Source: Echinicola rosea (GTDB lineage: Bacteria; Bacteroidota; Bacteroidia; Cytophagales; Cyclobacteriaceae). Taken from it: 64,000 nt of DNA. Under the pieces are notes generated by a model. That model did no database searches. It was not told the DNA's origin and saw only the letters and a program-made list of their open reading frames with translations. Of this stretch, positions 7,042 through 37,357 are shown in pieces. Where the stretch lies: positions 5,384,001 to 5,448,000 of the forward strand of contig NZ_CP040106.1 of assembly GCF_005281475.1 (NCBI RefSeq), written 5' to 3'. The position numbers were made by a program, and so were the translations under genes. Every line of letters begins with the position of its first letter. Position 1 is the first letter of the stretch.

Positions 7042-7102
7042 ACAAAAGCCTTAAATCCTCCTTTAAATGGTTCGAATTTGCTCTTATCAGCTCCACAACC
7101 CA

Positions 7103-7130
7103 AAAACGAGGTGAATTTCCGCCTCGTTTT
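7103..7130. terminator. Terminator-like hairpin inside left 392-bp repeat
   Basis: AAAACGAGG (7103-7111) pairs with CCTCGTTTT (7122-7130) around a 10-base loop. The A-run before and T-run after make it look like an intrinsic terminator usable in both directions. The right copy has the same hairpin at 31479-31504. Confidence 0.6.
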
Positions 7131-7276
7131 TTATTTATATTACATAAACCAAGCAACAAAAATCGTTTTCATCTATATAATAAGCTTTTAATTCGAAAAA
7201 TGAATTTCCAAAAACCAATTCTATCAAAAATCAAAATACTGACAACAATCTTCAAAAATCATATGATTTAACAAAT

Positions 7277-7318
7277 GGTTCGATAAATCTCATTGGCTTA
7301 GCCAATAGGATTCGAACC
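7277..7318. repeat. Long hairpin with inner 15-bp palindrome (left copy)
   Basis: GGTTCGA (7277-7283) is complementary to TCGAACC (7312-7318). Inside it, ATTGGCT (7292-7298) and AGCCAAT (7300-7306) form a near-perfect palindrome around a single T. In the right copy the outer stem is kept (31640-31647 with 31674-31681, one G-T pair) while the inner palindrome is eroded. This may be an RNA structure or a recombinase or protein binding site. Confidence 0.6.
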
Positions 7319-7433
7319 AAATTTCACTGAAAATTCCAATATTTTTTTTTGAATTTATCCATCAAACTCTTTTTTAAAGCTAAATATCAAACACATCTAA
7401 ATCAATCGTTCTTCCAATTGCCCCTTCCAAAGG

Positions 7434-7466
7434 TAACCGCACTTTTCAACCTTTACTGTGCGGTTA
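7434..7466. repeat. 9-bp inverted repeat at the repeat/radC junction
   Basis: TAACCGCAC (7434-7442) is a perfect inverted match of GTGCGGTTA (7458-7466) with 15 bases between. It begins exactly where similarity to the other 392-bp repeat copy ends, and sits 14 bp before RadC homology is lost. It is absent next to the right copy. It could be an element end or a structured scar. Confidence 0.55.
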
Positions 7467-7479
7467 AGGGACAAAGTCT

Positions 7480-7713
7480 TCCTCCGGATGAAGCGTTGAT
7501 AATTTCAAGGACACGGTTTGCCTTGTTGAGCAATATCACCTTGAACTCTTCGATAAACTCCAGTTTTGATGCGTCCCAGTTGGCCCTGAGGATTTTGTTG
7601 GCCGCCAGAGAGGAGACAATCTGCGGTTTTTCGGAAATCCTTGAATTGGGACGATAGCTCAGGGTGATTTCGGCTACCTGTTCCAAAGCGATCTTCTTGT
7701 TGTTGCTGTCCAT
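7480..7713 (-). pseudogene. Truncated RadC-like (JAB domain) gene
   Basis: From ATG 7713 about 78 residues match the N-terminal part of Bacteroidota RadC/JAB-domain proteins (EITLSYRPNSRISEKPQIVS, then EFKVILLNKANRVLEI and ASSGG). After SSGG, where the family continues toward the metal-binding HxHPSG motif, the frame instead reads eight unrelated residues and stops at 7453. The catalytic half is therefore missing. The break point lies beside the inverted repeat 7434-7466 and the left 392-bp repeat, so insertion or deletion of that element probably cut it. RadC-like genes of this type are frequent passengers of mobile elements in this phylum. Confidence 0.75.
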
Positions 7714-8276
7714 AACATTTCGTTTTTGATGGTTAGAAATTAATTATGGACACCGCCCCGCTTGAGGGCAACCAAGGCCAAGTGGCAACGGAATAAATGA
7801 AGGACATGCGGGAGAGGCAGTGTTTATGCCGGACACTCTTGGCCGCCCCGGCCGGCCGAAAGCTAACTTTGTGCTATGATTAATGAATAAATGGAATCAC
7901 CTCTGTTATCAAAGGTAACCGTATTCTATAATTAAGTATGTTATGTTGAATTCTGGTAATCAAAAAATCCTACTATAAAAGGCAGGGAATATGCAGCAGG
8001 GATAGCGGCGGGGGCATCAACTTATTTTTTCCATAAAACAGTAGCTAAAATCACCCATATTATTACATTAATTGCAAATAAACAGTGTTTTATACCTATA
8101 TTTATAACATAAAACCAAATAATACCAGATGGGTGCAATAAGGGAATATACGTTTATAGTGTATGATTCAGAAAATTTAATTTGAAATGAGAACTTATGC
8201 CTATTAACTAAACTCACAAAGCACCTCCTACCATACTCCCAGAAAATCACCCTAAAAATAACCAGTAATTGAATGC
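7714..8276. other. Spacer upstream of the response-regulator gene
   Basis: No gene is seen. A GC-rich patch near 7840-7862 is followed by AT-rich DNA up to the regulator start. Control signals for the regulator and for the truncated RadC gene must lie here, but none could be identified with confidence. Confidence 0.4.
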
Positions 8277-8915
8277 ATGAATATGGATAAAATTTTACCC
8301 ATCAGTATTGTTTTAGATGACCATCTTCTCTTTCTAGATTCATTTTCAGCTTTATTAGAAAGGTTGGAAATTTTCCGAGAGGTTCATTCCTTTCACAAAG
8401 AACATGATTTGATTCAGTTTTTGATCCACCATCCACAGGATAAAATTTACTTGTACTTGGACTATTATCTAAATGGAAAAAATTCCCTTCCACTTTTCAA
8501 CGAAATAAAACGGTTAAACCGCAAAACTGAGGTGATTGTTGTGAGTTCGGTGACTACCCCAATTACCATAGGAAACATCCTGAATTACCAGCCTAGGGCT
8601 GTGATCAGTAAGTCCTCAGGTTTGGATTCAATCCTACAGTGCAAAAAGGTCATAGACAACGGAGAGCAATACTTATGCCCAGAAATAAAAAAAATCATTA
8701 ACAACAGTCCCCAAAAGTCCGATATTCCCTTTAGTTCCAGGGAACTGGAAATTCTACAGTATTTTGCGAAGGGATTATCCATTGTCCAAACTGCAGAACA
8801 AACCCATTTGAGCAAGCACACAATAGTTTCTCACAGACGAAAAATGATGCACAAAGCCCAGGTCAATTCGATTACAGAATTACTTGCGTTTGCACGTAGC
8901 CTTGAATTGGTATGA
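8277..8915 (+). CDS. LuxR/NarL-type response regulator
   Basis: 212 residues. The receiver domain (about 8-125) has the acidic pair D14-D15, the likely phospho-acceptor D62, S90/S91 and the conserved K112. The C-terminal LuxR helix-turn-helix (about 150-210) includes FSSRELEILQYFAKGLS and LSKHTIVSHRRKMM. A histidine kinase of the matching HisKA_3 class follows after 34 bp, so the two form a two-component system. A second regulator very similar in sequence lies at 30184-30810, at the other edge of the surface-protein block, which suggests that both control these genes. Start at ATG 8277; ATG 8283 is also possible. Confidence 0.9.
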   Translation: MNMDKILPISIVLDDHLLFLDSFSALLERLEIFREVHSFHKEHDLIQFLIHHPQDKIYLYLDYYLNGKNSLPLFNEIKRLNRKTEVIVVSSVTTPITIGNILNYQPRAVISKSSGLDSILQCKKVIDNGEQYLCPEIKKIINNSPQKSDIPFSSRELEILQYFAKGLSIVQTAEQTHLSKHTIVSHRRKMMHKAQVNSITELLAFARSLELV

Positions 8916-8949
8916 TTAGGATACCCAAACTGAATACCCCATAGTAAAC

Positions 8950-10764
8950 ATGTCATCCCCAAAAACCTTTCTATTATTCTCTATTTACCTCCTCTCCAAC
9001 TTTTTCGCCAGCCCTACCATTGGTCAAATACAACTGATCAATAAAGAGATAGATCGTCGGTCTATGATCAAGGACAGTATCGACCTTGTAAACCACTATA
9101 ATCGTCTGGGAGTGCTTTTCAGGACCAGGAATTCGGATAGCAGCTTTCATTACGGCATTAAAGCCAAACACCTGGCCACAAAGTTACATTATCTAAAAGG
9201 CCTAACTGACGCAGACCTTATTATTGCCCATTCTTTATACAAAAAGGGGCTTTACGCAGAATCCCTAGAACTTTTGGGAAATTTATTGGCGGATTATAAG
9301 GAGCTCAATGATACAGAAAAAATCATTCGGATAAATCTGGACATGGCAGAGATCATAAACAAGGAAATCTATGACAAAAACGAGATAATCCCTTTATTAC
9401 GTGAAACCATTAAACTGGGAGATCAACTCGAAAAGGACAGCATTATGTCCGAAGTGTACATGACCTATATTAGACTTGGCCCGAAATTGTCCAAAGACAG
9501 TATTGATCATTATCTGGAACGGTCTGCTGAAATCGCCAAACGTTATCACGATGTACGCATGCAACACTATAACCGGATGTGGCGGACTCGGATGCTCATC
9601 TTGGAGGATGAAATGGAACAAGCTCTTCCACGGGTAAAAGCCATGCTTGAAAGCTCCCGGTCATCCGGAAACCATAGTATGCAGATCAATTGTCTTTTTC
9701 AAATGATGGCATTTTATGAGGACAACCCAAGGATGTCCCTCCATTACCTGTATCAAGCAAGGGAGGTGGCTAAAAAAAGTGGTGACAAATATGTTGAAAT
9801 CTATATTTTAAACTATGGAATAGGAATAGCAAGAGAGCTCGGGGATAAAGATGAGACAATTTACCTGCTCAGCGAATTAAAAAAGGCAAGGGAAGAAGAA
9901 TGGGAAAAATCCAAAAAGTTCTTTAGTGACTATATCAAATTCAATACAATCAAGGAAGATAATAGGTTACTAAACGAGAAGAACAAGCAAAAGGCCCTAT
10001 GGATCATAATCACCTCCTTATTGGCCTTATTTACCATCTTGGTCATCTATCTGATAATGCTAGGGAAAAGCCGAAAGGCCAAAGCCCAAATAGATTCCCT
10101 AAACGAAACCGCCAGCTTACAAGTAATTGCCATGGAAGAAATGAAGCATGCTGCCATCAAGAAAGAACAACAACGAATGGGGCAGGAACTTCATGACGGT
10201 CTATCTGCAACCATTGCAGCAATTAAGCACAATTTGGAAGGCCTGTATATGGAAATGAGTGACCCGGTCCTAAAAAACAGATTGTCCAATCTTACCGAAG
10301 ATCTGGCCCATGCCTATGCCTTGGCGAGAGATAAAAGCCATGAATGGTACCTCGCCGGAGAAAAACAAGAAAGCAGCTTTGAACAGCAGATTAAAGCGCT
10401 AGTGGACAGCGCCCTTCCAGATGGTTCCTATCAAAAAAGTATCCAAATAGACCCAGGATCAATGAGACAGATTGATTTGGATACCAGAATCGTACTATTT
10501 AGAATTATCCAAGAGGCCATTACCAATATTATCAAGCATGCCAAGGCCAAAAGGATCAGCTTACTGATCTATGAAGAACCCCATCATTTATCACTTTCCA
10601 TCAAAGATGATGGGGACGGTATGCCGAAAAAAAACACCAAAAGGAACAAACCATCCATGGGGCTTCAGTCCATACAACGTAGAGTACAATTACTCAATGG
10701 CCACCTTTCCATTCAATCCTCAAGTAAAGGTACGGAGATCAATGTGGACATTCCCTTCCCATAA
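8950..10764 (+). CDS. TPR-containing sensor histidine kinase (HisKA_3 class)
   Basis: 604 residues: signal peptide (about 1-25), helical TPR-like sensor region (about 30-330), one membrane helix (about 343-367, WIIITSLLALFTILVIYLI), a dimerisation/phosphorylation helix with His415 in QELHDGLSA, and a HATPase_c domain with the N-box Asn526 (QEAITNIIKHAK) and the G1 motif DDGDGM. This is the NarX/DesK-like class usually paired with LuxR-type regulators, like the one 34 bp upstream. The TPR part should be periplasmic, where it could sense cell-surface or envelope state; that role is inferred. It converges on the surface-protein genes that end at 10826. Confidence 0.9.
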   Translation: MSSPKTFLLFSIYLLSNFFASPTIGQIQLINKEIDRRSMIKDSIDLVNHYNRLGVLFRTRNSDSSFHYGIKAKHLATKLHYLKGLTDADLIIAHSLYKKGLYAESLELLGNLLADYKELNDTEKIIRINLDMAEIINKEIYDKNEIIPLLRETIKLGDQLEKDSIMSEVYMTYIRLGPKLSKDSIDHYLERSAEIAKRYHDVRMQHYNRMWRTRMLILEDEMEQALPRVKAMLESSRSSGNHSMQINCLFQMMAFYEDNPRMSLHYLYQAREVAKKSGDKYVEIYILNYGIGIARELGDKDETIYLLSELKKAREEEWEKSKKFFSDYIKFNTIKEDNRLLNEKNKQKALWIIITSLLALFTILVIYLIMLGKSRKAKAQIDSLNETASLQVIAMEEMKHAAIKKEQQRMGQELHDGLSATIAAIKHNLEGLYMEMSDPVLKNRLSNLTEDLAHAYALARDKSHEWYLAGEKQESSFEQQIKALVDSALPDGSYQKSIQIDPGSMRQIDLDTRIVLFRIIQEAITNIIKHAKAKRISLLIYEEPHHLSLSIKDDGDGMPKKNTKRNKPSMGLQSIQRRVQLLNGHLSIQSSSKGTEINVDIPFP

Positions 10765-10825
10765 ATTCCCACAGAAATTTATTAAATCGCCTTTGAACCG
10801 GTGGAAAGGAATGACCTCCACTTTA

Positions 10826-11329
10826 CTATTTCCAATAACTCCACTCCTCACCATCAAACACTGCCAATGCTTTTGCATCTGTATCATAGCACATCATCCC
10901 CGGATAGGGACTCGGCACATTGGTATGCGGAGAGGCTATTTTAGGCAGGATCAGGCTTTTATTGGAAGATTCCAATACCAGTGTACCATCAACTGAGGTA
11001 CTGGTAGCACCGATAACCGATTGTCTATCAGAGTCGGTGCCGTTATAAGGCAACACAGCGCTATTATCCCCTTCATCCGTCAAATTCACCCAGGTCCCAT
11101 TTTCATACACTTTGACCCTCTGGTCATTTTTATCGTACAGGAATGTTCCGTTGGCAGGACTACTTGGCAATGTTTCAATTGCTGGCAAAATAATTCCTTT
11201 GGTTGTCCCACTTGGAAAGTCCAACAAGCCATCACCATCTACCGTGTTTTTTTCGATTGCGGTCTGTCCAAAGGACAAACCACAACCGAAAAAGGATAGG
11301 ATTAGTATTAATGTGAGCAAACGTTTCAT
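10826..11329 (-). CDS. Small secreted protein with tail-fibre-like C-terminus
   Basis: About 167 residues from ATG 11329, preferred because a clean signal sequence (MKRLLTLILILSFFGCG) starts there; the frame also opens at 11365. The Cys at position 16 may be a lipobox, or cleavage may fall after SFGQ. Two short motifs, FLYDKNDQRVKVYENGTWVNL and GMMCYDTDAKALAVFDGEEW, belong to the small beta-motif common at the ends of Bacteroidota surface and tail-fibre-like proteins. The last residues of the 2849-residue protein just upstream (LYNGTAWNRIVRSCNE) use the same motif. The gap to that gene is 45 bp, so the two are co-transcribed. Function is unknown; a partner or anchor for the large protein is a guess. 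Confidence 0.65.
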   Translation of the reverse strand: MKRLLTLILILSFFGCGLSFGQTAIEKNTVDGDGLLDFPSGTTKGIILPAIETLPSSPANGTFLYDKNDQRVKVYENGTWVNLTDEGDNSAVLPYNGTDSDRQSVIGATSTSVDGTLVLESSNKSLILPKIASPHTNVPSPYPGMMCYDTDAKALAVFDGEEWSYWK

Positions 11330-11374
11330 AATAGTTATTTTTTTTTCAAAATATATCAATTCCAATCTATAGAC

Positions 11375-14300
11375 TTATTCGTTACAGCTCCGAACGATCC
11401 TGTTCCAAGCAGTACCATTATATAATTTGATACATTGATCCTGTATTTCATATACCAGCATCCCCTCCACTGGGCTTGCTACATCGCTGACCTGCTGTAC
11501 CCTGGTAATAACAAATCCGCTATCTTCTGATTCGATCACCACAAAGCCATTGGGGATATTGCCCGGCCAACCGGGAGTCAGACCGTCTCTGTCTGAGAAG
11601 CCTACTTTAGTAAATTCGGTAGGCGTACCTGTATTACCTGGTTTGGTGCAATATGTAGGAAAATCAGAAATACATGCTGTACCATCCAATTGATTGATAT
11701 AGCCGGTAATATTTTGAATAAAACTGGCGTTGCCTGTTGTTAAATCAAGCTGATAAATGTCTCCTGCGTTCGTAACGCCAAATATTTTACCGCTGTCCGT
11801 GGCAAACATACCTCCAAAAGCTGCACCTACATTCGTAAGTCCAATTTCTGTGATCACACCTGTATAAGGGTCAATACTGAATAGCTTATTGGTGGAGTTG
11901 GTAACCGTATATAAAAGATCATCCACAGGATTGTAAGCCATGTCTGCAATGAAATCATCAGTGAATGAACTTGTCAATAAAGTAGCCGTTCTATTAGCTA
12001 TATCGATACTGTATATAGGTTTTGTCCCTCCATTTCCCCTTACAATGTATGTATTGCCATCTGAAAGGACATCCCCGGCTACAAAACTATCCGATGGTAA
12101 TCCTGTTACCACACCCAGACTCACGACGCTTCCATCACTACCAACCTTATATAATGTATTTCCAGTTCTTGAAAGGGCGTAGATATAATTATCTACTTTG
12201 TTATACCCTATGGCATTATAAGCTACGCCATGTGAATTATCCCCAATAACCGTCATTGTATGTGGTGTCACATTATAATCAACCAAATGCAATGTACTTG
12301 GATCTGAAGGGGAAGCAGCAGTTATTAAGTATATATTATCATCACATACAAATGGCGATAAACAACTTAAAAGAGTGCCATCCTTCGACGTACCAATACC
12401 TTGTGAAGTACTCCCTGGAATACCATCTACGTCTATAGGATGCATTATGATATTAATTGAGCCATCAGCATTCAAGTCTGCATCTTCATAAATACCATCC
12501 CCTTCTAAGGCATCAAAACACCCATCATTATCACTGTCCAAGTCCTGGTAGTCCATTACCCCATCACCATCTGTGTCTGGACAAGCATTTATTTCAATAT
12601 CCCCAAGGGCAAAATCATCGGAAGCCCCAGATCCAGATACAAAGTCAAACCTTAAATCTCCTGTGCTAGGAATGCCACTTGGCAAATCAATGACCCAATC
12701 GGTATATACTGTTCCAATACTAAAGCTGGACAATGAGCCTGTTGCTCCATTTGCATAGGTTATCGTGGCTCCCGAACCTGCGCCATCAGAAGTTTCCAAT
12801 GTCACGTAATCCACTCCAGCATAAGATATGGTGAGTGTAGAAGCTGTACCACTTCCACCCGGGTTATTTGCAGCTATTTTTGAAATATAGATTTGCTGAG
12901 TGCTATAATTGTCCCATCCGGTAATATTTTGCGTAATGGATTGGGTCTGACCATCCCTTTGGAACCTGATGCCATTGCCAAATACGAAAGGGCCTGTAAT
13001 ATTATCCCAAAGGATCTGTGCACTGGTACCGGATCCTGTAGAGTTAAAAGTCCAGTTATTGGAAGTCGCGGTAGAAAATTGCCCGGCACTTAAGAATCCT
13101 GGCGAACCGGGCAAATTCGTAAAATCGCCTCTCTTAACGATATTGTTACCACATTCATCAGCATCCAATATTCCGTCGTTATCATCATCCAAATCGCAGG
13201 CATCATCAATCCCATCTCCATCAATATCATTTCCCGATGGATTCGGACAAGGCCCGCACTCGTCTAGTTCAAGTACATTGGAAAGCATTGGAGATCCTTC
13301 CGCACATGGGTTTTCAGGCTCTACTACCAATTCAAATAAACTGGATGCAAAATCCTCATCAGTGAATATATCACTTGTGATATCCACCACTACGGTAATA
13401 GAACTTTCGCCGGCTGGAATGGTAACATCCTCTGTTTCTATATAGGACTCCCCTACCGGGTTGATACCATGGACTCCCGTAACCCCACTATTAAAGGTTA
13501 CCGATACAATCTCTTGGCCTATATCATAATAGCCTTTTAGGGTGGCTCCAGTGATTTCAGCTCCTTGGTTGTCAAGGTTCAAGGTATAGGTCACTTGGTC
13601 GCCGTCCTCGATACATGAAGCATCCACTTCATAGAGTAAGTCCAATGGCGGCTCGGAATACGTACTTGCCTCAAAACCTACGGTACTAAATTCATTGCCT
13701 GCCGGATCGATACTGGTATAAGAATTCCCCGTTTCATCCACCGTAAAGTTACTCGTAGTGTTATAGGTAGTCGTCGTACCATCAGTACTCCTAACGTTGA
13801 TGTACAAATAGGTAGTACCTGGGGGCAACTCCAGTCCGTTTAAAGTGAAGCTGGAGGAATTATACGTATAGGTCGGTGAAGCAGGAAACTCTGAATCATT
13901 GTAAGTATCTTCTACGAATTCCAATCCTGAAGGCAAGCTTTGACTAATATCCACCGTTCTGGTATCGCAGTTACTATTGGTAAAACGCATACGCATAGTC
14001 GTTTCAATGCAACTTGGTACCTCCTCACTTTGGGTAAAGTCCTGCACCATTGTCACATTATCCTCGGTCGGAGGCAGTGGCAATGCACATTCAAAAGAAA
14101 TATCGCCCACATTTAGGGACCGTAATGTATTTCTGGAATTTACCCTATCCACTTCCGAAGTAATTACAATTTCCTCAATAGCCCTGTCAAACCTGACGTT
14201 CGCAGTGGAATGTAAAAACGCCAATCCACGGTAACGCTTCGTCCCAATCACCTGGTTATCTTGTATTTCATAGGTTGTGGCATCGGTAGGCGGTGCGGCA

Positions 14301-17300
14301 TAAGTGATTTTTGGCATCACCAAGTTTCCATCACAATCGAAACCTTCCACCGTAAACCTATTGGCATTGCTTAGGTAGGTATTGATATTTGATAATTGGA
14401 AACTGGCTCCTGATACAGATTGGTTTAAGCTAATGGTATGGGTTACTGCTAAGTTTTGGTTATCGTACCTTCTTGATAGCATCCATCTTCCATAACGTCT
14501 TGGCGAACTATTGGGGCCATACTCAATACCGGGAGGATAATTGGCTTCCATGTTTACGATCAAATCCCCCTGATCTGTCGTTCCTATGGTTTCCGGATCC
14601 ATTACATTGGCGATCCTTTCGGTACTGGCATCCCAACTGCTTCCTGTCTTGAATACAAAGCTTCCGCCTGTACAGATATCACAGGTACTCGGTGCCACAA
14701 TTCCTGCGAATTTGAGGTATTTGACACCTTCTGGGATCAGAACATTAAAGGTGGCGATCCCGCCTGAATAGGAAGCTGCCGGTATCTTCACCAAATTAGT
14801 AGTGAAATTTTCATCATCTGCCATCCACATTTCTATGTCTGTGTTGAAAGTATAAGCGTTTAAATCTGCTTCCAACCATATAGGGTCTGCCGTATTGGTG
14901 GTTTCTACACGCCACACTCTATTTGAAGATGATACTGCTGGGTCTAAAGTTTCTCCTGTACATGGATCTGTAGCAAGTGAGGTTTCTCCAGTTGCTTCAT
15001 TATCCCCGAACAGCATGTAGGTTTCATCGTTAGTAAAGCTTGTTCTTGAAGCATCGAGGTTACTCAATTCAAAATCATTATTGGTAGCAGCCGTTAAGAT
15101 AGTTCCCGCATTAATACTTTGCGATACTTTTTGTTCGAAGTTACCAATAACCGATTGAGCTAAACCGAAAATATTATTATTAAACGCGGTATTATCAGCA
15201 CCATTCCAAACAATAGCACTTCCTATAGCTGTTGAACCTAAATAATGCTCGGTATCAACACGATCTAGGGTTATCCCGTATTTAATAGCCAAATAAGAAT
15301 CTACACTACGTTTTTCTGTATCAGTTAAATCACCTGCATATAGAATAACCTCACTAATTTGTCCATCCCAACCATAAACAGATCCATTTTCAACATTATC
15401 ACCTCCACTAGCCAAACCAAAACCAGTTTCTACATAATTCATAGGTTCTAATCCTGTACCTGTTGCTTCGGCACTACCGTTTTGCGCTAAGAAAAAGGTT
15501 TGATTCTCTGGTGCCGGGTTTGACCCTGTTGTAATAATACTAGGTAATCCCGCTTCCCATACGCCATTTTCTACATAATCACTAAGATTTCTAAACTCTC
15601 CTATTTGTGGAGCTGTCCCGCCGGCACCTCCTACGTTACCAACAGCTATTCGCCTATCATTTTCATTAGCACCAGTACCTGTTTGTGATACATTGGTAAT
15701 ACCGAAAATATATTTTCTTTGTCCCAAAGAACTCGTATTTGGCGTCGCTACCGAGAACGTTGTTAAACCTGCTGTACCGGCAGCATAACCCGCCGTTAGG
15801 CTATTAAGTGCGGTATGCGGATTGGGTGTAAATTCCATATTCGGATTGAAATTTACAAAATTTGAAGTTTCATTATAGAACGGTTGGCGGTTTACATCTG
15901 CTTGGACAACTGTTTCTATACCACCCACTTGATCTTGTAAAGCACTTACTTTATCAACATTTAATGTTACTCCTTTATCTGCTCGATACCAACGAGCAAT
16001 ACCACTGGCAACACCCGCAGGAGCATTTACATAACCCGCTAACGTAAAATATTCTCCATCGTTTAAGGTTACTGTTGCCGTATTGTACACCACTCCATTA
16101 ACCGTAACGTCTGTAGTCATTTCGGTAAAGGTGTCGGTATTATCAAACGTTTCATCTGCCGATTGCACCAAGTATAAATTTGAAATACCTGCTGGCCATG
16201 CCACCGTAACATTACCGACGGCATTGGTGTTTTGTACTTTCCAAATGGCTGCAAATCGCGAATTCACTTCTCCATTAGCTCCTGCTGTATAACTTAAAGA
16301 TTCGCTTAAACCTTGCAATAAACCATTATCGCCAACCATTAAAAATTGTCCATCATTAAGTGTATTGGTATTCGCTGCATTGGTATCAAACAGTGAACTT
16401 CCCACTCCTAAAATCAGTTTTTGGTTATCATTGATGCTTGTTGATTGTTTTTGGTGAAGTGCTGAAGTAGCATCGTTAGCAATTCCAAATACGTTATTAT
16501 AGTAATTACTGTCTGTACCATCCCAAATAACAGTACCTGTAGCACTTAAATAGTCTCTGCTCTGCTCTGCACTTAATGTTTGCCCATACTTAATGGCAAG
16601 ATATGATTCTACTCTATTAAACTCTTCATCGGTCAGCTTGTTATCAAAAACAATCATTTCATTTTGCTGCCCTTCTAATTGATAACCGGCATCAGCCTTT
16701 CCTACCATAAAGGCATTGCGATCAGCATCAAGTCGTACATCGGTTATATTTGTATCATATGTTTGATGAAAACCACCAAGTGTAATATCTACAAGATTAT
16801 TTCCGCCAACACCAGCTCCATTTTCCCAAGTTCCGCCTCCAATGTATGGTCCATCTATTGTGTAAGTGCTTACGGGATCATATTCTCCTAATCTGGGGTA
16901 AAATAAAAAATCATCATCGGTAAACCTGTACAAACCTGGATCATCCATATCATTTCCACGTCCACTAAGCCCAAAGCCTATAAAGGGTGCCAAATCACTT
17001 GTACTTCCAGCAGAGAATAGGGCGCCTTGGCTTCTATCAATAATATAGCCATTACTATCTATTGGATCATACTGTAACCATTTTTCACCTCCTGTATAAG
17101 TTACCGTTGGATTAAAGTTGACCAAGGTGGTTGTATTTGAATAATCAGGTCGGTAATTAGCGTTAGATTGCGACAACGGAAAAGGATTATTGTTAAACTC
17201 ATTCCACTGTTGAATAGTTGAAGCATCTGTTGCATTGGTTGTACCAGCATCAGAAAATAGTGTGTTTGCCGCATCTGCCCTATACCAGGCTGCTGCTGTA

Positions 17301-19924: not shown

Positions 19925-20159
19925 ATTATCTCTATTAATATTTTAGCTTTATTAGCTTTAAAAGATGGTTACTAGTGTTCTCCAAATTGACAAAACAGTG
20001 AATCATTAATTGTCAAGGAATTAGAACTTCAATCATTGAAGATGATTATGCTCTAACCTTACGGATTTCCCCATGTTTTGATGAAGTCTTTACCAACCAA
20101 CCTGTCAATTATAAAAACTACCTGAAAAATTCAGGTAGTTTTAAACATAGGACGCCTAT
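19925..20159. other. Spacer between the two large surface-protein genes
   Basis: 235 bp holding the terminator at 20114-20142 and presumably the promoter of the 2849-residue gene on the minus strand. No protein frame was seen. Confidence 0.5.
20114..20142 (-). terminator. Intrinsic terminator after the tandem-repeat protein gene
   Basis: AAAACTACCTGAA (20114-20126) and TTCAGGTAGTTTT (20130-20142) form a perfect 13-bp stem with a 3-base loop. It lies 17 bp past the stop of the gene ending at 20160, and in the minus direction it is followed by a T-run. Confidence 0.85.
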
Positions 20160-24131: not shown

Positions 24132-24222
24132 AGCTATCATTCTTTAAAATTTATTGACCAACTGAGTTCCTTTATTTTATAATGACAGAAAAGTTCAATG
24201 CACGAGCATTCCTTCCCCTGTC

Positions 24223-25809
24223 TCATTCCTTTATTACCTGTATCCATCCTTTAAATTCCTTTTCCTCTCCACTGGGCTCAGTGACTTCCAGAATGTAGAA
24301 ATAGGTACCTGCGATAAGTCCACTTGCATTCCAGTCATTTTGATAATTTTCTACGTCAAGTACCTCATCATTCCATCGATTAAGGATCACTATCCTGTTA
24401 CTGGTAAACCTATTGAGACCACGTATCTCAAATAAATCGTTATCCCCGTCGTCATTTGGAGTGATCACATTGGGAATAAAGAAGGCATTAATGTTGTTTT
24501 CATCGGTGGCGGCATTGTCCGAAGGATCACCATCCTCTTCAGAGGATCCTACCTCGGCATAATTTGTGATTGGACCGGCATTACCTGCAGTTACCCGAAG
24601 CTTGATTATCATCTCGTCCCCGGCCCTGAACAGTGGGACACTCCAAGTCAGTACCTGACCCATGGCTTCCATATCCCATTCCAGCAGCCCAAAGGCCGAT
24701 TCCACTTCCATACTTTCATATTCCACCCCATTGGGCAGGTTGTCCACTATTACTACATTAGAAGCATCCACCCCACCATTGTTCTGTACCCTGATTTCAT
24801 ATTCAAATACATCCCCTTCATAAACAGATGCTTCGAACGAGGTCTTTGATATCGACATATTGGTCATATTAGCCGACATCACTGCCAGAGTAAATATGCC
24901 ATCATCCTCCAAAGGGTCAGGTGTTGTCACCGTTTGGCTATTACCGTCCACATCCCCGCCTAAGTTGGTCCACAACGATTCCCCCTCGTCCCATTTTGCC
25001 ACCACGATATCACTGGTTACTCCCAAAATAAAAGCAGGGGTTGTGACATCTCGCCAAGAAAGGGTCAGACGGACATCGTCATTATCATTACCATTCTCCA
25101 GGAACAGCTCCCAATATTCCGCATCGTCAATCAGCTCTAAACCTTCCTCTTTTTGTTCCCTAGGATATGATCCGTCGGGATCTTCAAAAAAGTATTTGGT
25201 ATGGAATTCAACATCGGAGTCAGAAGGTGCTGATATTCCTGCAAACCTGAAAAAACCACCATCACCGACAGGGTAATCAAAATCCTCATCTCCTCTTTTT
25301 TCGACATAACCGTCCACATGGCTGGCATCTGACGCTCCTTCATAGGTACTGCCACGCTCAAAAAGCACTAGTCCGCCATTTCCATCGGAAAGAACCACCC
25401 CGTCCACAAACCTGGAAACCCCGGAAATACTGATGTCGCCGGAAAGATGAAAGGCATTTTGGTGATTGGGATTTTCAAAAAGCACATTGTTGAGATTTGA
25501 TATTTGACTACCACTGATATCCTGAACACCGTTTTTTCCTACAAATCGGGTATTCCCCTCATCCCCCTGACTAAAAGTCACTTCTCCATCATTGTTAAAA
25601 TGAGCATACAGGTACAGGTCCCCATCATTGAGCAACTTTCCCGTTTCGGTATTGTTCAAATCAAAATTACTGGACACCACTGTTCCGCGCTTAATACTCA
25701 TAGTACCCTTGTTCACCGTCTGGGCCGACACACCGGCTCCGGAAACCATTGCCAGAACCGTCAAAAGGAAAAATGATTCCCTCAATAAAAATTGTCCACG
25801 TTGTCTCAT
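24223..25809 (-). CDS. DUF11/CHU_C surface protein (type B T9SS sorting domain)
   Basis: 528 residues: signal peptide (about 1-29), a beta-rich N-terminal part, a DUF11-like Ig fold (about 315-435, VYEGDVFEYEIRVQNNG, VIVDNLPNGVEYESM) and a C-terminal CHU_C gliding-motility-associated domain (about 445-528, FIPNVITPNDDGDNDLFEI, ending KGWIQVIKE). This C-terminal domain is the type B signal for export by the type IX secretion system, whose substrates often depend on a neighbouring PorP/SprF protein, as here. The start overlaps the stop of the upstream OmpA gene by 4 bp, so translation is probably coupled. Confidence 0.9.
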   Translation of the reverse strand: MRQRGQFLLRESFFLLTVLAMVSGAGVSAQTVNKGTMSIKRGTVVSSNFDLNNTETGKLLNDGDLYLYAHFNNDGEVTFSQGDEGNTRFVGKNGVQDISGSQISNLNNVLFENPNHQNAFHLSGDISISGVSRFVDGVVLSDGNGGLVLFERGSTYEGASDASHVDGYVEKRGDEDFDYPVGDGGFFRFAGISAPSDSDVEFHTKYFFEDPDGSYPREQKEEGLELIDDAEYWELFLENGNDNDDVRLTLSWRDVTTPAFILGVTSDIVVAKWDEGESLWTNLGGDVDGNSQTVTTPDPLEDDGIFTLAVMSANMTNMSISKTSFEASVYEGDVFEYEIRVQNNGGVDASNVVIVDNLPNGVEYESMEVESAFGLLEWDMEAMGQVLTWSVPLFRAGDEMIIKLRVTAGNAGPITNYAEVGSSEEDGDPSDNAATDENNINAFFIPNVITPNDDGDNDLFEIRGLNRFTSNRIVILNRWNDEVLDVENYQNDWNASGLIAGTYFYILEVTEPSGEEKEFKGWIQVIKE

Positions 25810-28160
25810 TGTTTCACCTTGATTTCAGTTCTTCTGTTCAATTGATGGATTTCTTCACTGCAGGGGATATCCTTGCAATCCTCTACTGGGGAAGATTCGC
25901 CGAGTCCGGAATAATCCAGTCGGCCTTTGTTTATCCCTCTGTCGATCAGGTATTGGGCCACTGTCCCCGCCCGCTCTTCCGACAGCTCCTTATTGTAGGC
26001 TTCGCTTCCTCTGATATCAGTATGCCCTTGGAGCTCCAAGCGGAGGTCATCATTATTTTCAAGTAACAGGACCAATCGCTCCAGTTCCATTTTGTCTTCA
26101 ACCCGGAGGTCAGTCCTGTCAAAATCGAAGTGGACCATAGGAACACCTGTATACTCTTCGATCATCTGCATGGGCTGCAGCTTATTACACCAATCTTCCG
26201 GCAACATGCCACCGGGAACGGTCATGCCCTCTTCAATTTCCAATGAGATGACCAGTTCGGTCCTCCTGTTGAGTTGGTGCAGTCCTTCGGGGCAATGGTC
26301 ACCATCCGCACAATCGTTTACCAATTGTTCTTCCCCGTGCCATTCGGCAGCTATTCTTGCCGCATCCACGCCTCTGCCCACAAGGCTGGCCTTTACATTT
26401 TCGGCTCTTTGCCTACTCAGCTCCACATTATATTGTCTTGACGCCCTGGAGTCGGTGTGCGCTGAGACCTTGATACGCAGGAAGGGATATTCCTTGAGCA
26501 GCTTAGAAGCCCTGTCCAAAATCTTGGAGGCATCTTCCCTTATGGAACTCTTGTCAAGATCATAATAGATGATATCGACATATACCGTCCTATTATCCGG
26601 TACGGGCACAAGCCTGTATTCCCTTTCAATGGTCCCCGGTTCGGTTCCCTTGGTGGTAATATCAAGGTCTTCGACACTGAAATATCCTTTCTTGGTCAGT
26701 TCAAGTTCATATTCGGTATTACCGGAAAGGACCCCACTATAAACCCCTTCATCCTCCTGTGCCATTTCCACCTGTTCGCCCTGTTCGTTTTGGACCATAA
26801 GCCTGGCCCCTTTCACGGGAAGCCCGTTGCAGTCCACTGTACTGACCACCAGCTTCCTCAGGGCCCGGGCCACCTGCCGGTAGATATTGTCCAGTCCTGA
26901 ATCTCCTCTTCTGTTGGAGCTCAAGTAAATCTCATTGTCCGGATATTGACGGTAGGCAAAATCATCCTTGCTTGAATTATAGGGCTCATCCAAAGGGGCA
27001 ATATCAGAGAAACTCCCTTCCTGTAGATCCACTTGGTAGACATCCAGTCCTCCATGGCCCTGGTGTCCGTTGGAGGCAAAAAAGAATTTGTCCGAATCCA
27101 CAAAGGGATCTCTTTCGTCACCCGCAGAATTGACGGGCTCCCCTACATTTACTGGCTCACCGAATTCAAAATCACCGGAATACCCTACATAGTAGATATC
27201 ATATCCGCCATGTCCACCTTCCATGTCCGAAGCAAAATATAGCCGTTCGGCAGATTGGTCCACAAAGGGCGTCACCATTCCATGTTCAAGTGTGCTGTTG
27301 AAGGGAAAGGATTTGATATTGGCTACTTTGTCCCCCTGCAGCTCTCCGTAAAAAATCTCCGGGCTGACCGTGAACGTTCTTTTCTGCTTGGCTTTTCTGA
27401 TGCTCCGTGTAGCCGAGAAAAACAAATACTCCTTGCCCTCTGCCTTGACAATGGACGGGTCACTTACATTTAAAAAGTCATCCCTGTCCATCTGCAGTTG
27501 GATAATCGCTCCATTCGGATCTTTCTTGTAAATTTTCAGGTATTCCCTCCCCGTCCAGTCCGAAAATTCCTTGTCGTACAGTTGGTTCCTGGCATCGAAC
27601 CGGATTCCCGGAAATGACTTTTCTTGGGCTTTAGTGTCCCTGTCGGAAACAAAATAGAGGTTCCCTTCTCCATCCCTTGCCCCCATAAAATCAGCGGCAC
27701 TTAAGGTATTAAGCTCTGCCGCCAGCTCCAGTTGATCCTCTTCGGCCTTGTCACTGACTGTCCGGTACATCAACAGGTCCAGGGGATCCATATTTGAAGG
27801 ATCAAGACCGAGCTGCCTTAGTTTTTTCAGTGCGTCGTCCTCCTTTCCCACTGCATAGGAAGACTTCAAATAATTTTCTGCATCATCAACAGATGGGTTT
27901 TCTCCAATTTCCATAGCCTTTCCCCACCATTCATAGGCTTTTGCATAATTATTCGATTTGGCATAACATTCGGCAGCTCCTTTTGCAGAGCGATAAGTCT
28001 TCCTTCTTTCAAATGCTCTGGTATAACCTTCCACTGCCTGAGCATAATTTGCCAGGGCAGATTGTTCATCTGCATACCTTAACAATGCATTTTGACCATT
28101 TGTGGTGCTCCAAAATGCGCAGGACAGAAAAAGTGTCAACAAAAGGGTATAATTCTTCAT
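25806..28160 (-). CDS. PD40-repeat protein with two OmpA domains
   Basis: About 784 residues from ATG 28160 (MKNYTLLLTLFLSCAFW signal); ATG 28175 would overlap the upstream gene. Order: TPR-like helices (about 25-150), PD40/WD40-like propeller repeats with FVSDRD, LYFASDMEGGHGGYD, FFFASNGHQGHGGLD and LSSNRRGDSGLDN (about 165-430), a carboxypeptidase-regulatory-like sandwich (about 435-510), then two OmpA peptidoglycan-binding domains (about 520-640 and 675-784) with AHTDSR...LSRQRA and GHTDIRG...LSEERA. OmpA/PD40 proteins next to PorP/SprF are common T9SS accessories that tie the apparatus to peptidoglycan. Two OmpA domains in one chain are unusual. Confidence 0.88.
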   Translation of the reverse strand: MKNYTLLLTLFLSCAFWSTTNGQNALLRYADEQSALANYAQAVEGYTRAFERRKTYRSAKGAAECYAKSNNYAKAYEWWGKAMEIGENPSVDDAENYLKSSYAVGKEDDALKKLRQLGLDPSNMDPLDLLMYRTVSDKAEEDQLELAAELNTLSAADFMGARDGEGNLYFVSDRDTKAQEKSFPGIRFDARNQLYDKEFSDWTGREYLKIYKKDPNGAIIQLQMDRDDFLNVSDPSIVKAEGKEYLFFSATRSIRKAKQKRTFTVSPEIFYGELQGDKVANIKSFPFNSTLEHGMVTPFVDQSAERLYFASDMEGGHGGYDIYYVGYSGDFEFGEPVNVGEPVNSAGDERDPFVDSDKFFFASNGHQGHGGLDVYQVDLQEGSFSDIAPLDEPYNSSKDDFAYRQYPDNEIYLSSNRRGDSGLDNIYRQVARALRKLVVSTVDCNGLPVKGARLMVQNEQGEQVEMAQEDEGVYSGVLSGNTEYELELTKKGYFSVEDLDITTKGTEPGTIEREYRLVPVPDNRTVYVDIIYYDLDKSSIREDASKILDRASKLLKEYPFLRIKVSAHTDSRASRQYNVELSRQRAENVKASLVGRGVDAARIAAEWHGEEQLVNDCADGDHCPEGLHQLNRRTELVISLEIEEGMTVPGGMLPEDWCNKLQPMQMIEEYTGVPMVHFDFDRTDLRVEDKMELERLVLLLENNDDLRLELQGHTDIRGSEAYNKELSEERAGTVAQYLIDRGINKGRLDYSGLGESSPVEDCKDIPCSEEIHQLNRRTEIKVKQ

Positions 28161-28165
28161 CATCT

Positions 28166-29140
28166 TTAGAACCATCTTTGATTTCTCATCCTGGCTTTAC
28201 GGGGAGACAGGTAATACCCCAGAGATATCTCATGTGAATTGTGCCGCATCCCTGAAAGAACATTCAAGTTCTGGTCATAGGCATATCCTATCCTCAGATC
28301 GGGAGTGGCAAAGACCTCAAGGATCAACGCCAAGGCATTCCTATTGGACAGCCTTTCATCAAGATTATTTTTCCACCATTTTACGTTAGACCGGAAGGAG
28401 CCTCCAAGCCATAGCCGCTCATGGAAAAGAAACATGGCATTCAGGTCAAAATTGGTCGGAGCCCCTTTTACCTCTTTTACAAGAATTGATGGTTTGAATT
28501 TCACTGCTTCGCTCAAAGGCAAAAGGGTGCCGGCGGTGAAATAATAATGGAAGTCGTGGTAGGCCAGGGCGATGTCCTCTCTCTTGACCTGTTTTTTCCC
28601 AATCATGTTATAGGCACTTAACCCAATATAGAAATCACTTGTGTTGAAAAATATCCCCGCATTCATATTAGGAGTGTACAGGTTGGTTATCCCATCTGAC
28701 AATACATCATCAGGATAATCATTGGGATCAAGCATGGAATGGTCCAAGGCATATTCGGAAACGCCCGCACTTACACCAATCCCCAAAAACGACTCATGAC
28801 CCGTCTGGATCCGGTAGGCATATGTCAACAGCCCGCCTGTCGTGCGTGCAGCGCCAAGCTCATCATTAAGGAAGAGTACGCCAAAACCCATTGTTCCCTC
28901 ATTTGCACTGAAATCGGCTGATACTGAAAGTGTTTTGGGCGCACCTGGAAAGTTGGTCCACTGGGAACGATACGTCGCTTGTATATAGCCTTCCTGCTTG
29001 TACCCTGCATACCCAGGATTAATATGCATGCCATTGAAAATATACTGGCTAAATTGTGGGAGTTGTTGCCCGTGACTATTACAAACAACTAGAAAAACTC
29101 CTGCAAACATCAAAAAAAAGAATCTTAAATATGTTTTCAT
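28166..29140 (-). CDS. PorP/SprF-family type IX secretion outer-membrane protein
   Basis: 324 residues with a signal peptide (about 1-24) and the family hallmarks: QLPQFSQYIFNGMHINPGYA near the N-terminus, YRSQWTNFPGAPKT, and a C-terminal HEISLGYYLSPRK. SprF of the gliding bacteria binds the type B domain of the adhesin SprB and is needed for its export; genes of this family are usually paired with one CHU_C protein. Here that partner is the gene at 24223-25809, with the OmpA protein between. It heads the minus-strand operon, preceded by about 1 kb of gene-free DNA. Confidence 0.92.
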   Translation of the reverse strand: MKTYLRFFFLMFAGVFLVVCNSHGQQLPQFSQYIFNGMHINPGYAGYKQEGYIQATYRSQWTNFPGAPKTLSVSADFSANEGTMGFGVLFLNDELGAARTTGGLLTYAYRIQTGHESFLGIGVSAGVSEYALDHSMLDPNDYPDDVLSDGITNLYTPNMNAGIFFNTSDFYIGLSAYNMIGKKQVKREDIALAYHDFHYYFTAGTLLPLSEAVKFKPSILVKEVKGAPTNFDLNAMFLFHERLWLGGSFRSNVKWWKNNLDERLSNRNALALILEVFATPDLRIGYAYDQNLNVLSGMRHNSHEISLGYYLSPRKARMRNQRWF

Positions 29141-30183
29141 AATTACTTTCCTTATATTGCCTGCTCAAGACGTTTACTAACACTACACCTCAGATAACCA
29201 AAACCATTTAGATTCGCTTCAACTAAATAGAAGAGGCTTAGCACGTTTAACTTTAACTGCCCCTGCTGGTTAAATTCAGAGGCAGTATGATATTGTCTGG
29301 CCGCAATACCCAAGATTGGTATGCTCTTAATTGTAGTATAAAATTTGTACTGCCTGTTCATAGATAATTATGTTTTAATATCTCCGCTGACTATAGGATG
29401 CTTAAGAGATGAACTGAAAAAACCGTTAAACCAACGCTGAATTCTATCATAATTATTGGTTTATCTAAAATTGATAGACCTACACATTTGAGTTAAATCA
29501 CAAAAGATTCGATACAAATGAACAAAATCCAATAAACTGATCTCTCACATGTCCCTATGGGACATCGAGAATAAAATTTTGCTCAGCTTTCATAAACGAA
29601 ATAAACATAAAATCATCAGTTTATTGCACAGACAATTGTCAACCCTTGAATAAATACCAATTTCAAGCTACTCATTACCAAAAAACAGCATTTTTTTGTG
29701 ATACCTTTCAGTAGTTTTAACTATTTTATGGCATTGCAACCACCCATTCCAAGCAAATAATATTTTACAACTAAAGAAAAAACGATTTGAAAATATAAAA
29801 TATGATCTTCGTAAAAAACATGTTCTACCTACCTTGGTAGATGATAGATGTTTTTACAAAAAACAACCGTAAAGTAGTGAACCATATCTCACCATAATCA
29901 GAGATTTTTATTATGGGATAGTTGAAGATTTATAGAAAATGTCCTTACAAACCTAGATTCTAAAAACACATCAATAAAAAACCTTCCTCGGTGATTTACA
30001 CATCCTTCTCCTATAGCCATGCATTCAAAAAAATGGAGAAGCTCCTCTTCCAAATAACTTATTCTAATGATCATCACAAATTATTGTCATATTCATAAAA
30101 TAGGCAACATGTTTTTGTTATTGTTTGTTTGATCTCACATAAGTAGCACAATTAACTTGCTAATGGTGCCTAGCTTTAAAATT
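29141..30183. other. 1-kb gene-free control region between the T9SS operon and orphan regulator
   Basis: This AT-rich stretch separates two divergent genes, the PorP/SprF operon (minus) and the LuxR regulator (plus). A 69-codon minus-strand frame at 29152-29361 has no recognisable product. The region contains the palindromes at 29549-29565 and 29829-29840. Its length suggests complex regulation or a small RNA. Confidence 0.5.
29549..29565. promoter_or_regulatory. 17-bp palindrome, candidate operator
   Basis: ATGTCCC (29549-29555) and GGGACAT (29559-29565) form a perfect palindrome around TAT, with an outer TCTC/GAGA pair. It lies between the divergent T9SS operon and the LuxR-type regulator, so a binding site for one of the two LuxR proteins is possible; this is inference. 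Confidence 0.4.
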
Positions 30184-30810
30184 ATGAAGCACCAAAAAGC
30201 AATAATATATGACCACCATCGGCTCTTTAGTGACTCCTTTTCTTGTATCATGGAAAGATCGGATCTTTTCCAGTCCATCCAATCTTTCTTTGACGATAAA
30301 GAACTTGTACAACATATCATATCAGAAAGTCCAGAACCTACAGTTTTGTTTATAGATTTCATAATGGATGATGCTTATTCCTTGTTCTTAATAAATGAAA
30401 CCCGGCGCCTCAACAGAAACCTGAAAGTGGTGGTGGTCTCTGGAATTTCTTCCCCTTCACTCATCAAAACTATTATAAGTTATCGGCCACATGGGTTTAT
30501 CTCAAAATCTTCTGGCTTTGATGAAATAATAAAGTGCTTAAAAAAAATCGAGGACGGCCAATTTTATTTATGTCCGGAAATCCAAAATGTTCTGACTAAT
30601 TACGAAAAAATAGAGAAAATACCATTTACATCAAGAGAGCTACAAATTTTACAACTATTTGCTCAAGGATTTTCAATTGACAAAACTGCAGAATTGGTTC
30701 ACTTAAGTAGGCATACCATCGTTTCACATAGAAGAAAAATGATGAAGAAGGCTGGTTGTAAATCCATTATCGAATTGTTGGCATTCTCACACAAGCATGG
30801 ATTAATATGA
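30184..30810 (+). CDS. Orphan LuxR/NarL-type response regulator
   Basis: About 208 residues from ATG 30184 (MKHQKAIIYDHH), chosen over an upstream ATG at 30157 because the receiver starts directly after it. The receiver has the phospho-acceptor Asp58 in LFIDF and a conserved Lys in ISKSSG, but the usual acidic pair is reduced: the first position is Tyr (YDHH). The LuxR helix-turn-helix (FTSRELQILQLFAQGFS, LSRHTIVSHRRKMM) is nearly the same as that of the regulator at 8277-8915. No kinase is adjacent, so it may share the kinase at 8950 or act without one. It is divergent from the PorP/SprF operon. Confidence 0.88.
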   Translation: MKHQKAIIYDHHRLFSDSFSCIMERSDLFQSIQSFFDDKELVQHIISESPEPTVLFIDFIMDDAYSLFLINETRRLNRNLKVVVVSGISSPSLIKTIISYRPHGFISKSSGFDEIIKCLKKIEDGQFYLCPEIQNVLTNYEKIEKIPFTSRELQILQLFAQGFSIDKTAELVHLSRHTIVSHRRKMMKKAGCKSIIELLAFSHKHGLI

Positions 30811-30937
30811 CTTTAAAACACTAAAGTTTCACATTATTATTTCGTCATGCTTAAGTTAAACAGCCTGTTATCATTATGGATAGTTAGTCCATAGGTACAA
30901 TTATATCAGTTTGTTTTCGTAAATCTCTATCCTAATA

Positions 30938-31180
30938 ATGCGTATTAATTTCAACCAAAAGGAATTCGTTTATACAACATATATAGGGAAGACCTTCTCT
31001 AAACCAAAAAAAATATCCCCAATTATCCAGATGGGGTCATTGGTAGTTTATAACCATGATGATATCGTTTTACGTTTTGTAATTGAGGATATAAATAACA
31101 GGATTTATCATCACTTCACTTTAAATGAAATTCATCAAAAAAGCATAGACGAACTATTCCAAATACTTACTAGTGCCTGA
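30938..31180 (+). CDS. Small hypothetical protein (80 aa)
   Basis: The protein opens MRINFNQKEFVYTTYIGKTF and is rich in Ile, Lys and His, with no signal peptide or membrane segment. It follows the orphan regulator on the same strand after 127 bp. I do not recognise a family. The balanced amino-acid composition makes a real gene possible, but there is no clear ribosome-binding site and no second line of support. Confidence 0.4.
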   Translation: MRINFNQKEFVYTTYIGKTFSKPKKISPIIQMGSLVVYNHDDIVLRFVIEDINNRIYHHFTLNEIHQKSIDELFQILTSA

Positions 31181-31416
31181 TCAAATTAAGACATCCTAAA
31201 TATTCATTGACACTGATAGGGCATTAGATGCTACGCCTTCTCCTAAATGCTCCTAAGTTGAATGATTTGGCTCCGGTTGGACTGCAATACGGAAACCTAA
31301 TCATTTAGTAAGAAATTTTCCCTTCCCGGGGGCTAGCCTCCGGGAAGGGAAAGGACAGTGTTGAGATAAGACTCCCTCGCCCCTTTGAGTATTCTCCTTC
31401 CGATCTCAAATACCCG
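31181..31416. other. Spacer with strong 13-bp-stem hairpin
   Basis: TTTCCCTTCCCGG (31317-31329) pairs perfectly with CCGGGAAGGGAAA (31340-31352), with a GGCTAGCC palindrome in the loop. No gene is seen. The hairpin is GC-rich, lacks a T-run and may be a repeat-type palindrome or a terminator. Confidence 0.5.
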
Positions 31417-31808
31417 CCAAAAGCCTTAAATCCTCCCCCAAGTGGTTCGAGTTTGCTCTTATCAGCTCCACGACTTAGAAACGAGGTGAATTTTCGCCTC
31501 GTTTTTTTTATATTACATAAACAAATTAACAAACATCGTTTTCATCTATATAATAAGCTGTTAATTCGAAAAATGAATTGTCAAAAACCAATTCCTTCAA
31601 AAATCAAAATACTGACAAAAATCATATGATTTAACAAATGGTTCGATCAATCTCATTGGCTTAGCTAGTAGGAATCGAACTAAATTTCAAATAAATTTGC
31701 GTCCAATAACCATTAATTATTCCGTATAAATGGAATAAACTTATTTTTAAAGTTAAAATCCGAAACAAACTTAAACCAAGCGTTCTTCCATTTGACCCTT
31801 CCAAAGGA
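31417..31808 (+). repeat. Dispersed ~392-bp repeat, right copy
   Basis: This is the direct-repeat partner of 7042-7433, with the same order of landmarks. The terminator-like hairpin AAACGAGG/CCTCGTTT is at 31479-31504. The long outer stem GGTTCGAT (31640-31647) pairs with ATCGAACT (31674-31681) through one G-T pair. It lies between the orphan LuxR regulator and the IS200 remnant. Confidence 0.85.
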
Positions 31809-31919
31809 TATATCCCTTTCTTGGATCCGAATAATCATGGTTTAACCTACTGAAACTTTCCGGGGACCTTTCAATAAAAGCTTGCCTTCCCTTATCCCCA
31901 TCCAAAGGAAGGGGATTTG

Positions 31920-37330: not shown

Positions 37331-37357
37331 AACTGACGACAAAAACACTTTAAAACC

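Follow-up and report, generated by a model that had tools for sequence, protein, structure and literature searches.

Direct repeats around a 24-kb surface-display locus of Echinicola rosea contain the 3′ end of ssrA and probably are attachment sites within a tandem island array

The 64,000-nucleotide stretch of the Echinicola rosea genome analysed here (the window; C1:5384001-5448000, C1 being the single contig of the 6.06-Mb genome) contains a 24-kb surface-display locus bracketed by two direct repeats of about 392 bp. A preliminary description of this DNA had seen in the repeats a duplicated non-coding sequence without a gene that could be named. Instead, each repeat carries the 3′ end of ssrA, the gene for transfer-messenger RNA (tmRNA), followed by a terminator-like sequence and by the final codons of a gene for a TOTE primase. 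The repeats therefore are best read as composite attachment (att) sites that probably arose from site-specific integration at ssrA, such that the 24-kb block is one segment of a 305-kb row of such segments.

Alignment bore out that the two copies lie on the same strand. They are identical in 323 of 404 aligned columns (24 gap positions, 392 bp aligned) and thus are diverged copies, because only 85% of the ungapped columns agree and the longest exact run is 32 bp. Both follow the same layout (Table 1), in which a conserved island end of 55 bp is followed by the tmRNA 3′ end CAGCTCCAC, a terminator, and a right arm of ~300 bp, the nine bases CAGCTCCAC standing between the left 55 bp and the right arm. 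Genome comparison showed that the left 55 bp also precede other right parts. Rfam (gathering thresholds) reported no family and ARAGORN no tRNA in the window, because the repeat holds only the end of ssrA. Rather than being scattered singly through the genome, the repeat occurs in four copies, all on the plus strand and within 103 kb; a fifth match of 30 bp on the minus strand lies inside the first copy. As the preliminary description had anticipated, the repeats mark segment borders, and the same sequence flanks other DNA, namely segments C and D in this genome and TOTE elements in relatives.

The intact ssrA gene is found on the plus strand at C1:5109667-5110076, 281 kb upstream of the left repeat. 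A scan of 370 kb (C1:5096001-5466000) with the pattern GTTCGA-N12-CAGCTCCAC gave five exact sites, att1 to att5, all on the plus strand, and no further site in this interval with up to two mismatches. A stricter pattern with three mismatches allowed retrieved only the four repeat copies from the whole genome, and its reversed control retrieved none. The five co-oriented sites split the 305 kb from ssrA to the right repeat into five segments, A to E, delimited by ssrA and then att1 to att5, so that the tandem islands have the ssrA 3′ end as their border and the 24-kb block is E (att4 to att5). Three types of right arm follow the six core sites (ssrA and att1 to att5), and each opens with a terminator-like hairpin (-13.5 to -20.2 kcal/mol). 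Two of the types run into genes for large serine recombinases (LSRs), and the third, TOTE-type arm is present at four of the six sites, i.e., at all four repeat copies. Around att2 and att3 (C1 5312200, 5343033), 800 bp are common at 92% identity (~540 bp right of the core), and segments C and D start alike.

The source of the TOTE-type arm can be seen in related genomes. The first 299 bp of the left copy have matches in 10 of 59 genomes, own included; the match in G046, a member of another family, is a piece of the right arm only. In relatives, the arm sits after an intact ssrA or an att site and runs into a TOTE-primase gene. It stands directly behind the intact tmRNA gene of G003 (~72% identical), and shorter parts stand there in G002, G007, G008 and G009. 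A TOTE element of ~5 kb occurs in G003, G004 (two copies), G007, G008 and G009, in the order att, a protein of ~1009-1031 amino acids (aa) on the minus strand, an AlbA_2-type protein on the plus strand, att. The right-hand att is present in G007, G003, G009 and G004 and partial in G008, and the AlbA_2-type gene is shortened or split in some of these relatives. Pfam identifies the G003 primase as AEP-TOTE plus helicase and the G007 protein as AlbA_2. In E. rosea, ends of AlbA_2 genes persist immediately to the left of att2 and of att3 and, in the case of att1, at a distance of ~5 kb on its left side. The two repeats of E would then be the left ends of this element, which is largely intact in relatives. 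Among the genus genomes (11, own included), a TOTE element adjoins ssrA in G003, G007, G008 and G009, and an LSR gene does so in E. rosea, G004, G006 and G010. For G005, an LSR beside ssrA was judged from a 112-aa open reading frame (ORF) and the arm at a contig end, and G001 and G002 have neither at ssrA.

An indication of site-specific events comes from identity profiles in 100-bp bins, in which similarity between species changes at the core. To the left of att1, E. rosea is 98-100% identical to G010 across 600 bp, and identity is 33% in the first bin to the right. The opposite is seen for ssrA against G004 4971396 (32-48% left of the core, 90-99% right) and for att1 against the G004 ssrA (31-45% left, 80-98% right). 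At att2, G004 4966369 is 98-100% identical over 1.5 kb on the left, followed on the right by 86, 94 and 71% before similarity stops; in the fifth comparison, between the two ssrA genes of E. rosea and G004, 99-100% over 400 bp on the left gives way to 43-83% on the right. We also compared eight regions for blocks of at least 500 bp at 97% identity or more. Segment A has four such blocks in common with G010, together 31 kb at 99.5-99.9%, the last of which stops at 5184792, the final base of the att1 core. Segment B shares 18.6 kb at 99.7% with G004, overrunning the att2 core by 232 bp into the shared arm. Barring this overrun, none was found in C, D or E, and the chromosome beyond the array, where alignable, is 82% identical to G003 and 80% to G004. 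The presence of near-identical DNA in other species would lend indirect support to a putative excision and transfer of A and B. It may also fit an order in which newer elements lie nearer to ssrA, though it is no proof of that order; a strict rule of outward ageing is consistent with the data and not proven by them, the slot of E being unlike that of G003 although D is common to both.

LSR1, beside ssrA, and LSR2, at the left end of B, would be the likely catalysts of integration. Their matches to XisF, CcrB and CcrC in NCBIfam (including that of LSR1 to CcrB) all stay below cut-off, and every equivalog cut-off is missed. RadC and conjugation genes come after LSR1, with TraM and DUF4138 in segment A; in relatives, TraG and TraM are found in G006 and a relaxase in G004 beside LSR2. 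A and B thus each have an integrase of their own and conjugation genes, as in an integrative and conjugative element (ICE), own B being judged by its alignment to G004. A tyrosine integrase was rejected as the catalyst, since no PF00589 (tyrosine recombinase) match lies in the array or anywhere between 4.79 and 5.68 Mb; the tyrosine-recombinase integrase of an integron cassette array is missing for the same reason. Outside the array, LSR-domain matches stand at C1 5669097, 5838233, 3103710 and 3412274, two of them with an internal stop. E has att sites on both sides and lacks integration and transfer genes: it gave no match to PF00589, PF07508 or LSR1, and none of its ten scanned proteins has a recombinase or Tra domain.

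We propose that elements would integrate at the ssrA 3′ end (core CAGCTCCAC) by recombination between their own attP and this end. Each island would supply the CAGCTCCAC end and a fresh terminator, and the tmRNA would therefore stay functional. Through repeated integration, co-oriented segments would pile up between ssrA (C1:5110066) and window position 31471, and older segments would lose recombinase and transfer genes and persist as bracketed cargo. E looks like such a stranded, decayed, cis-mobilizable-like passenger, although its mobility, i.e., its arrival or departure as a unit, is something that we infer. The RadC remnant, which the preliminary description had placed correctly at the left copy, would fit a trace of a decayed conjugative element; its DNA is 78-82% identical to RadC regions of G004, and as a hint that E derives from a related ICE it is suggestive only.

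A profile search of genome contigs with an alignment of the LSRs confirmed at least 542 relatives, the best 80 of which were analysed. These are the closest relatives and no random sample, and records of the own or very near genomes may be excluded from them. In 67 of these best 80, the 3′ end of a convergent tRNA or tmRNA gene lies no more than 60 bp from the end of the LSR match (18 Arg, 14 Pro, 12 Leu, 9 Met, 7 Lys, 3 Val, and one each of Cys, Gln, Glu and tmRNA), and in none is a tRNA equally near the LSR start. Of the 13 others, the tRNA is 79 and 139 bp off in two and ~760 bp off in one, one lies at a contig end, and nine have no tRNA within 1.5 kb. A terminator-like hairpin with a T run comes after the tRNA in 67/67 loci, versus 55 of 1340 80-mers drawn at random from these loci. 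In all 67, the LSR frame continues without a stop past the tRNA boundary, although in L152 and L145 it does so for just 1 and 8 bp; the other two frames are free of stops throughout the last 75 bp in 12 of 134 cases. In 52 of the 67 the LSR stop codon lies within the tRNA. At ssrA, LSR1 ends CRQVELQGVEPWSR; in a relative from G004 that adjoins an island end, the sequence is CRQVELIRENSNHLG and runs onward.

From these positions, tRNAs would be the targets of the LSRs. Taken together, they may point to a Bacteroidota-wide LSR family whose attB is the 3′ end of tRNA and tmRNA genes, whose gene lacks a stop codon within the element and whose tail is swapped on integration; we offer this joint reading tentatively, as possible rather than likely. 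The last LSR codons would cross the terminator supplied by the element and then the att site, and enter the tRNA in antisense. Integration would then rebuild and terminate the host RNA gene and at the same time exchange the C-terminal tail of the recombinase, which could serve as a built-in sensor of the integrated versus the circular state. For serine recombinases at tRNA or tmRNA genes, the literature search covered openly available articles, and absence from print is not claimed.

With respect to E itself, the block is variable among relatives, as the preliminary description had expected, and not fixed in them. Its histidine kinase was found in only one of 148 genomes of the family, E. rosea itself (E <= 1e-40), with best relatives elsewhere at 53-56% identity. 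Protein relatives in Algoriphagus, Belliella and others would place the genome in Bacteroidota. A DNA search with window positions 9190-29140 gave matches in all 11 genus genomes, but the left 12.9 kb (9190-22117) has none in the ten others. G003 holds 6.9 kb at 81% identity to 22118-29068, ~80 kb beyond its proB-like gene, and the idea that E is unique to this genome had to be rejected in part for this ortholog of its operon. Other matches, own paralogs included, are PorP-level or short patches of 64-73%, apart from one 59-bp patch at 88%. Near 5087-5090 kb, G004 retains part of the second regulator (75% over 94 aa), together with sequences that match the 80-aa ORF and RadC. Parts of E have thus changed their surroundings in one lineage or more. 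Most of D (own 5344228-5388019) is collinear with G003 4957569-5002582 (D as a whole is 82% covered and 82% identical, in the same order), and collinearity resumes at own 5421276 with G003 and G004 alike. In G003, the slot of E holds different genes, along with a weak att-like site that has three mismatches and an LSR1-type arm after it (a scan that lenient yields chance sites, too). In G004, the last att site leads straight to the resumed chromosome, without D or E. The preliminary description had hoped for a genome with one repeat copy and no block; no clean empty site for E was found. Judged from these alignments, D and E may be old att-bracketed segments that were lost in G004, or gained pieces.

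This raises the question whether E is old native chromosome, flanked by chance by truncated TOTE elements, with the differences between species caused by deletions through att-site recombination. The collinearity of D with G003, the passage from the last att site to the proB side in G004 without D, and the presence of the core operon of E elsewhere in G003 speak for such a history. We regard it as rather unlikely, because the left part of E has no DNA match in the ten other genus genomes, its slot in G003 holds other genes, and the RadC remnant and the lower G+C content (42.2% versus 47.8% in the chromosome beyond the array; segments A-D, 44-46.5%) suggest a foreign origin. The view of the preliminary description, that the copies are a duplication through which the block could loop out, duplicate or move by homologous recombination, appears improbable. 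Direct repeats with exact runs of up to 32 bp, and the 92% identical stretch at att2 and att3, could serve RecA-type exchange; however, the copies have diverged to 85%, every one of them holds the ssrA end and a terminator, identity with other species switches at the 9-bp core, and intact and truncated TOTE elements account for the repeat sequence. Finally, another, unseen recombinase could have built the array, the LSR elements being just two of several users of the site. TOTE-type arms at four of the six core sites stem from elements without a recombinase and two att-like sites elsewhere adjoin tyrosine recombinases, but we consider this improbable in view of the lack of PF00589 matches in this region, the LSR frames that extend into the att site and ssrA, and the position of most of the analysed LSR relatives at tRNA or tmRNA ends.

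Several observations sit uneasily with site-specific integration at ssrA by LSRs as well. The internal att sites pair one island arm with another (P-P′), a combination that classical serine integrases are not known to recombine, and E might for this reason be locked in place; no circle or excision was seen. The TOTE-type elements that own the repeat arms come without a recombinase, and the genome contains five further LSR-domain matches, of which LSR2 is one. A looser census of the 11 genus genomes counted 37 att-like sites, versus 4 for the reversed control, several of them distant from ssrA. A plus-strand pattern scan found no att site near the 6.9-kb ortholog in G003. Also, since most of D is collinear with G003 at native-like identity, D and possibly E could be ancient chromosomal DNA between att sites rather than gained islands. 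We nevertheless hold integration at ssrA to be the probable origin of the repeats, given the anatomy of the att sites, their common orientation, the arms common with relatives and the identity change at the core.

Tandem islands at ssrA with a serine recombinase are already known. The study of Dehalococcoides (McMurdie et al. 2011, PMC3146451) describes tandem ssrA islands that have ssrA itself or a repeated copy of its 3′ end at their borders and a reverse-strand serine recombinase adjoining attL, and suggests that islands without an integration module are cis-mobilizable. The array in E. rosea likewise has tandem islands downstream of ssrA and a reverse-strand serine recombinase beside attL in A and B (none in E). 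In contrast, the Dehalococcoides repeat as given there is 20 bp, with crossover in the tmRNA T-loop, whereas the core CAGCTCCAC lies in the 3′ strand of the acceptor stem and not in the T-loop; the integration module described (DsiB, DsiA, RecF, ParB, Mom-like) is not seen beside LSR1, where RadC and conjugation genes are found instead; arms carry terminators; and the array spans 305 kb, as compared to repeats within 100 kb of ssrA in Dehalococcoides (PMC3146451). Cis-mobilizable elements (CIMEs) and the accretion of integrative elements have been reviewed (PMC5704250). E resembles a CIME as an att-flanked segment without integration or transfer genes beside related integrative elements, and differs in that its att sites join two island arms, that the linked recombinases are LSRs and that its mobilization would be a supposition. 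With Ccr- and XisF-type recombinases the LSRs share the Resolvase, Recombinase and Zn-ribbon domains; they differ in their position at tRNA or tmRNA ends and in a reading frame that leaves the element. As with the tRNA-targeting islands treated by Islander, for which tandem arrays are known, the island end restores the tRNA or tmRNA gene (PMC4383910); its authors wrote in 2014 that a serine-recombinase family placed at tRNA genes was not known. TOTE conflict systems have in common with the ~1009-aa protein of the relatives the AEP-TOTE primase and helicase, while the window keeps only C-terminal remnants.

The features of the window and the array are listed in Table 1. Concerning the content of E, the two-component system and the second LuxR-type regulator of the preliminary description stand, but its six surface genes were a generous count: three have family support (PorP_SprF, OmpA, CHU_C), and for the two very large proteins the scans gave no more than a DUF6923 repeat or weak matches under threshold. 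The IS200 remnant reported at the right copy was found again. The paralogous LuxR-type regulators stand near opposite ends of E, and long, in-frame-looking repeats are present in the two very large surface-type genes (16011-18857, 21055-21984 and 22270-23625, with spacings of 1257-1290, 210 and 264 bp, respectively). Elsewhere in the genome, three att-like sites at C1 2194037, 2195066 and 2196668 (L194) have a type-1 arm, each followed, by eye, by a different terminator-like sequence, and adjoin small modules that comprise an AbiEii-type gene as well as a HepT/nucleotidyltransferase pair. Beside them, no structural RNA ending in CAGCTCCAC was found, and tRNA-Ala was ruled out as their anchor, since it ends ATTCTCCACA and not CAGCTCCAC. 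At C1 5726396 and 5809083, and at 5452411 of contig C1 in G008, a type-2 island arm is joined to LSR2-type and LSR1-type right arms. These sites lie away from ssrA near tyrosine-recombinase genes, and look like circular-form junctions of LSR elements carried elsewhere.

Table 1. Positions of the att sites, repeat copies, recombinase genes and features of segment E and its flanks (window positions unless C1 is given)
Feature	Position	Strand	Basis or remark
LSR1, beside ssrA, left end of segment A	C1:5110039-5111595	-	Pfam Resolvase, Recombinase, Zn-ribbon
LSR2, left end of segment B	C1:5184688-5186322	-	LSR match; G004 counterpart with Pfam Resolvase, Recombinase, Zn-ribbon
att1	C1:5184766	+	pattern scan
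att2	C1:5312182	+	pattern scan
att3	C1:5343015	+	pattern scan
att4 (left repeat)	C1:5391070	+	pattern scan
att5 (right repeat)	C1:5415445	+	pattern scan
Repeat copies	C1:5312155, 5342989, 5391042 (window 7042), 5415418 (window 31417)	+	genome search
Left repeat (att4)	7042-7433	+	arm 7042-7087; core CAGCTCCAC 7088-7096; terminator about 7103-7132; right arm to 7433
TOTE-primase remnant at att4, last 11 codons and stop	7397-7432	-	read from sequence against relatives' gene; too short for tblastn
RadC remnant	7480-7713	-	protein comparison; residues 1-78 of RadC beside LSR1, 79%
LuxR-type response regulator	8277-8915	+	Pfam GerE above cut-off, Response_reg just below
Histidine kinase	8950-10764	+	Pfam
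2849-aa surface-type protein with DUF6923	11375-19924	-	Pfam
1326-aa repeat protein	20160-24140	-	weak matches only
Protein with DUF11 and CHU_C / type IX secretion system (T9SS) type B sorting domain	24223-25809	-	domain scans
OmpA-family protein	25806-28175	-	domain scans
PorP/SprF-family protein	28166-29140	-	domain scans
Second LuxR-type regulator	30157-30810	+	Pfam; 49% to first
80-aa ORF	30938-31180	+	no Pfam family; 60% match adjoins regulator remnant in G004
Right repeat (att5)	31417-31808	+	arm to 31462; core 31463-31471; terminator about 31479-31509; then right arm
TOTE-primase remnant at att5, residues 969-1009	31774-31896	-	sequence comparison; 41 codons, 95% identical
IS200-type transposase piece	32136-32516	-	Y1_Tnp, profile positions 2-84 of 121
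AbiEi/AbiEii pair, between att5 and collinear chromosome	33000-34656	+	domain scan
ORF that we take to be proB-like; collinearity with G003 and G004 resumes	37276-38149	+	genome alignment

What had been an anonymous repeat thus becomes a readable record of insertions, and the array explains how surface-display and other accessory genes can accumulate at one site; recent interspecies DNA was observed in A and B, the segments close to ssrA, but in neither D nor E. Of broader interest is the LSR family at tRNA genes, which would matter for software that finds islands at tRNA genes as well as for DNA-insertion tools in Bacteroidota.

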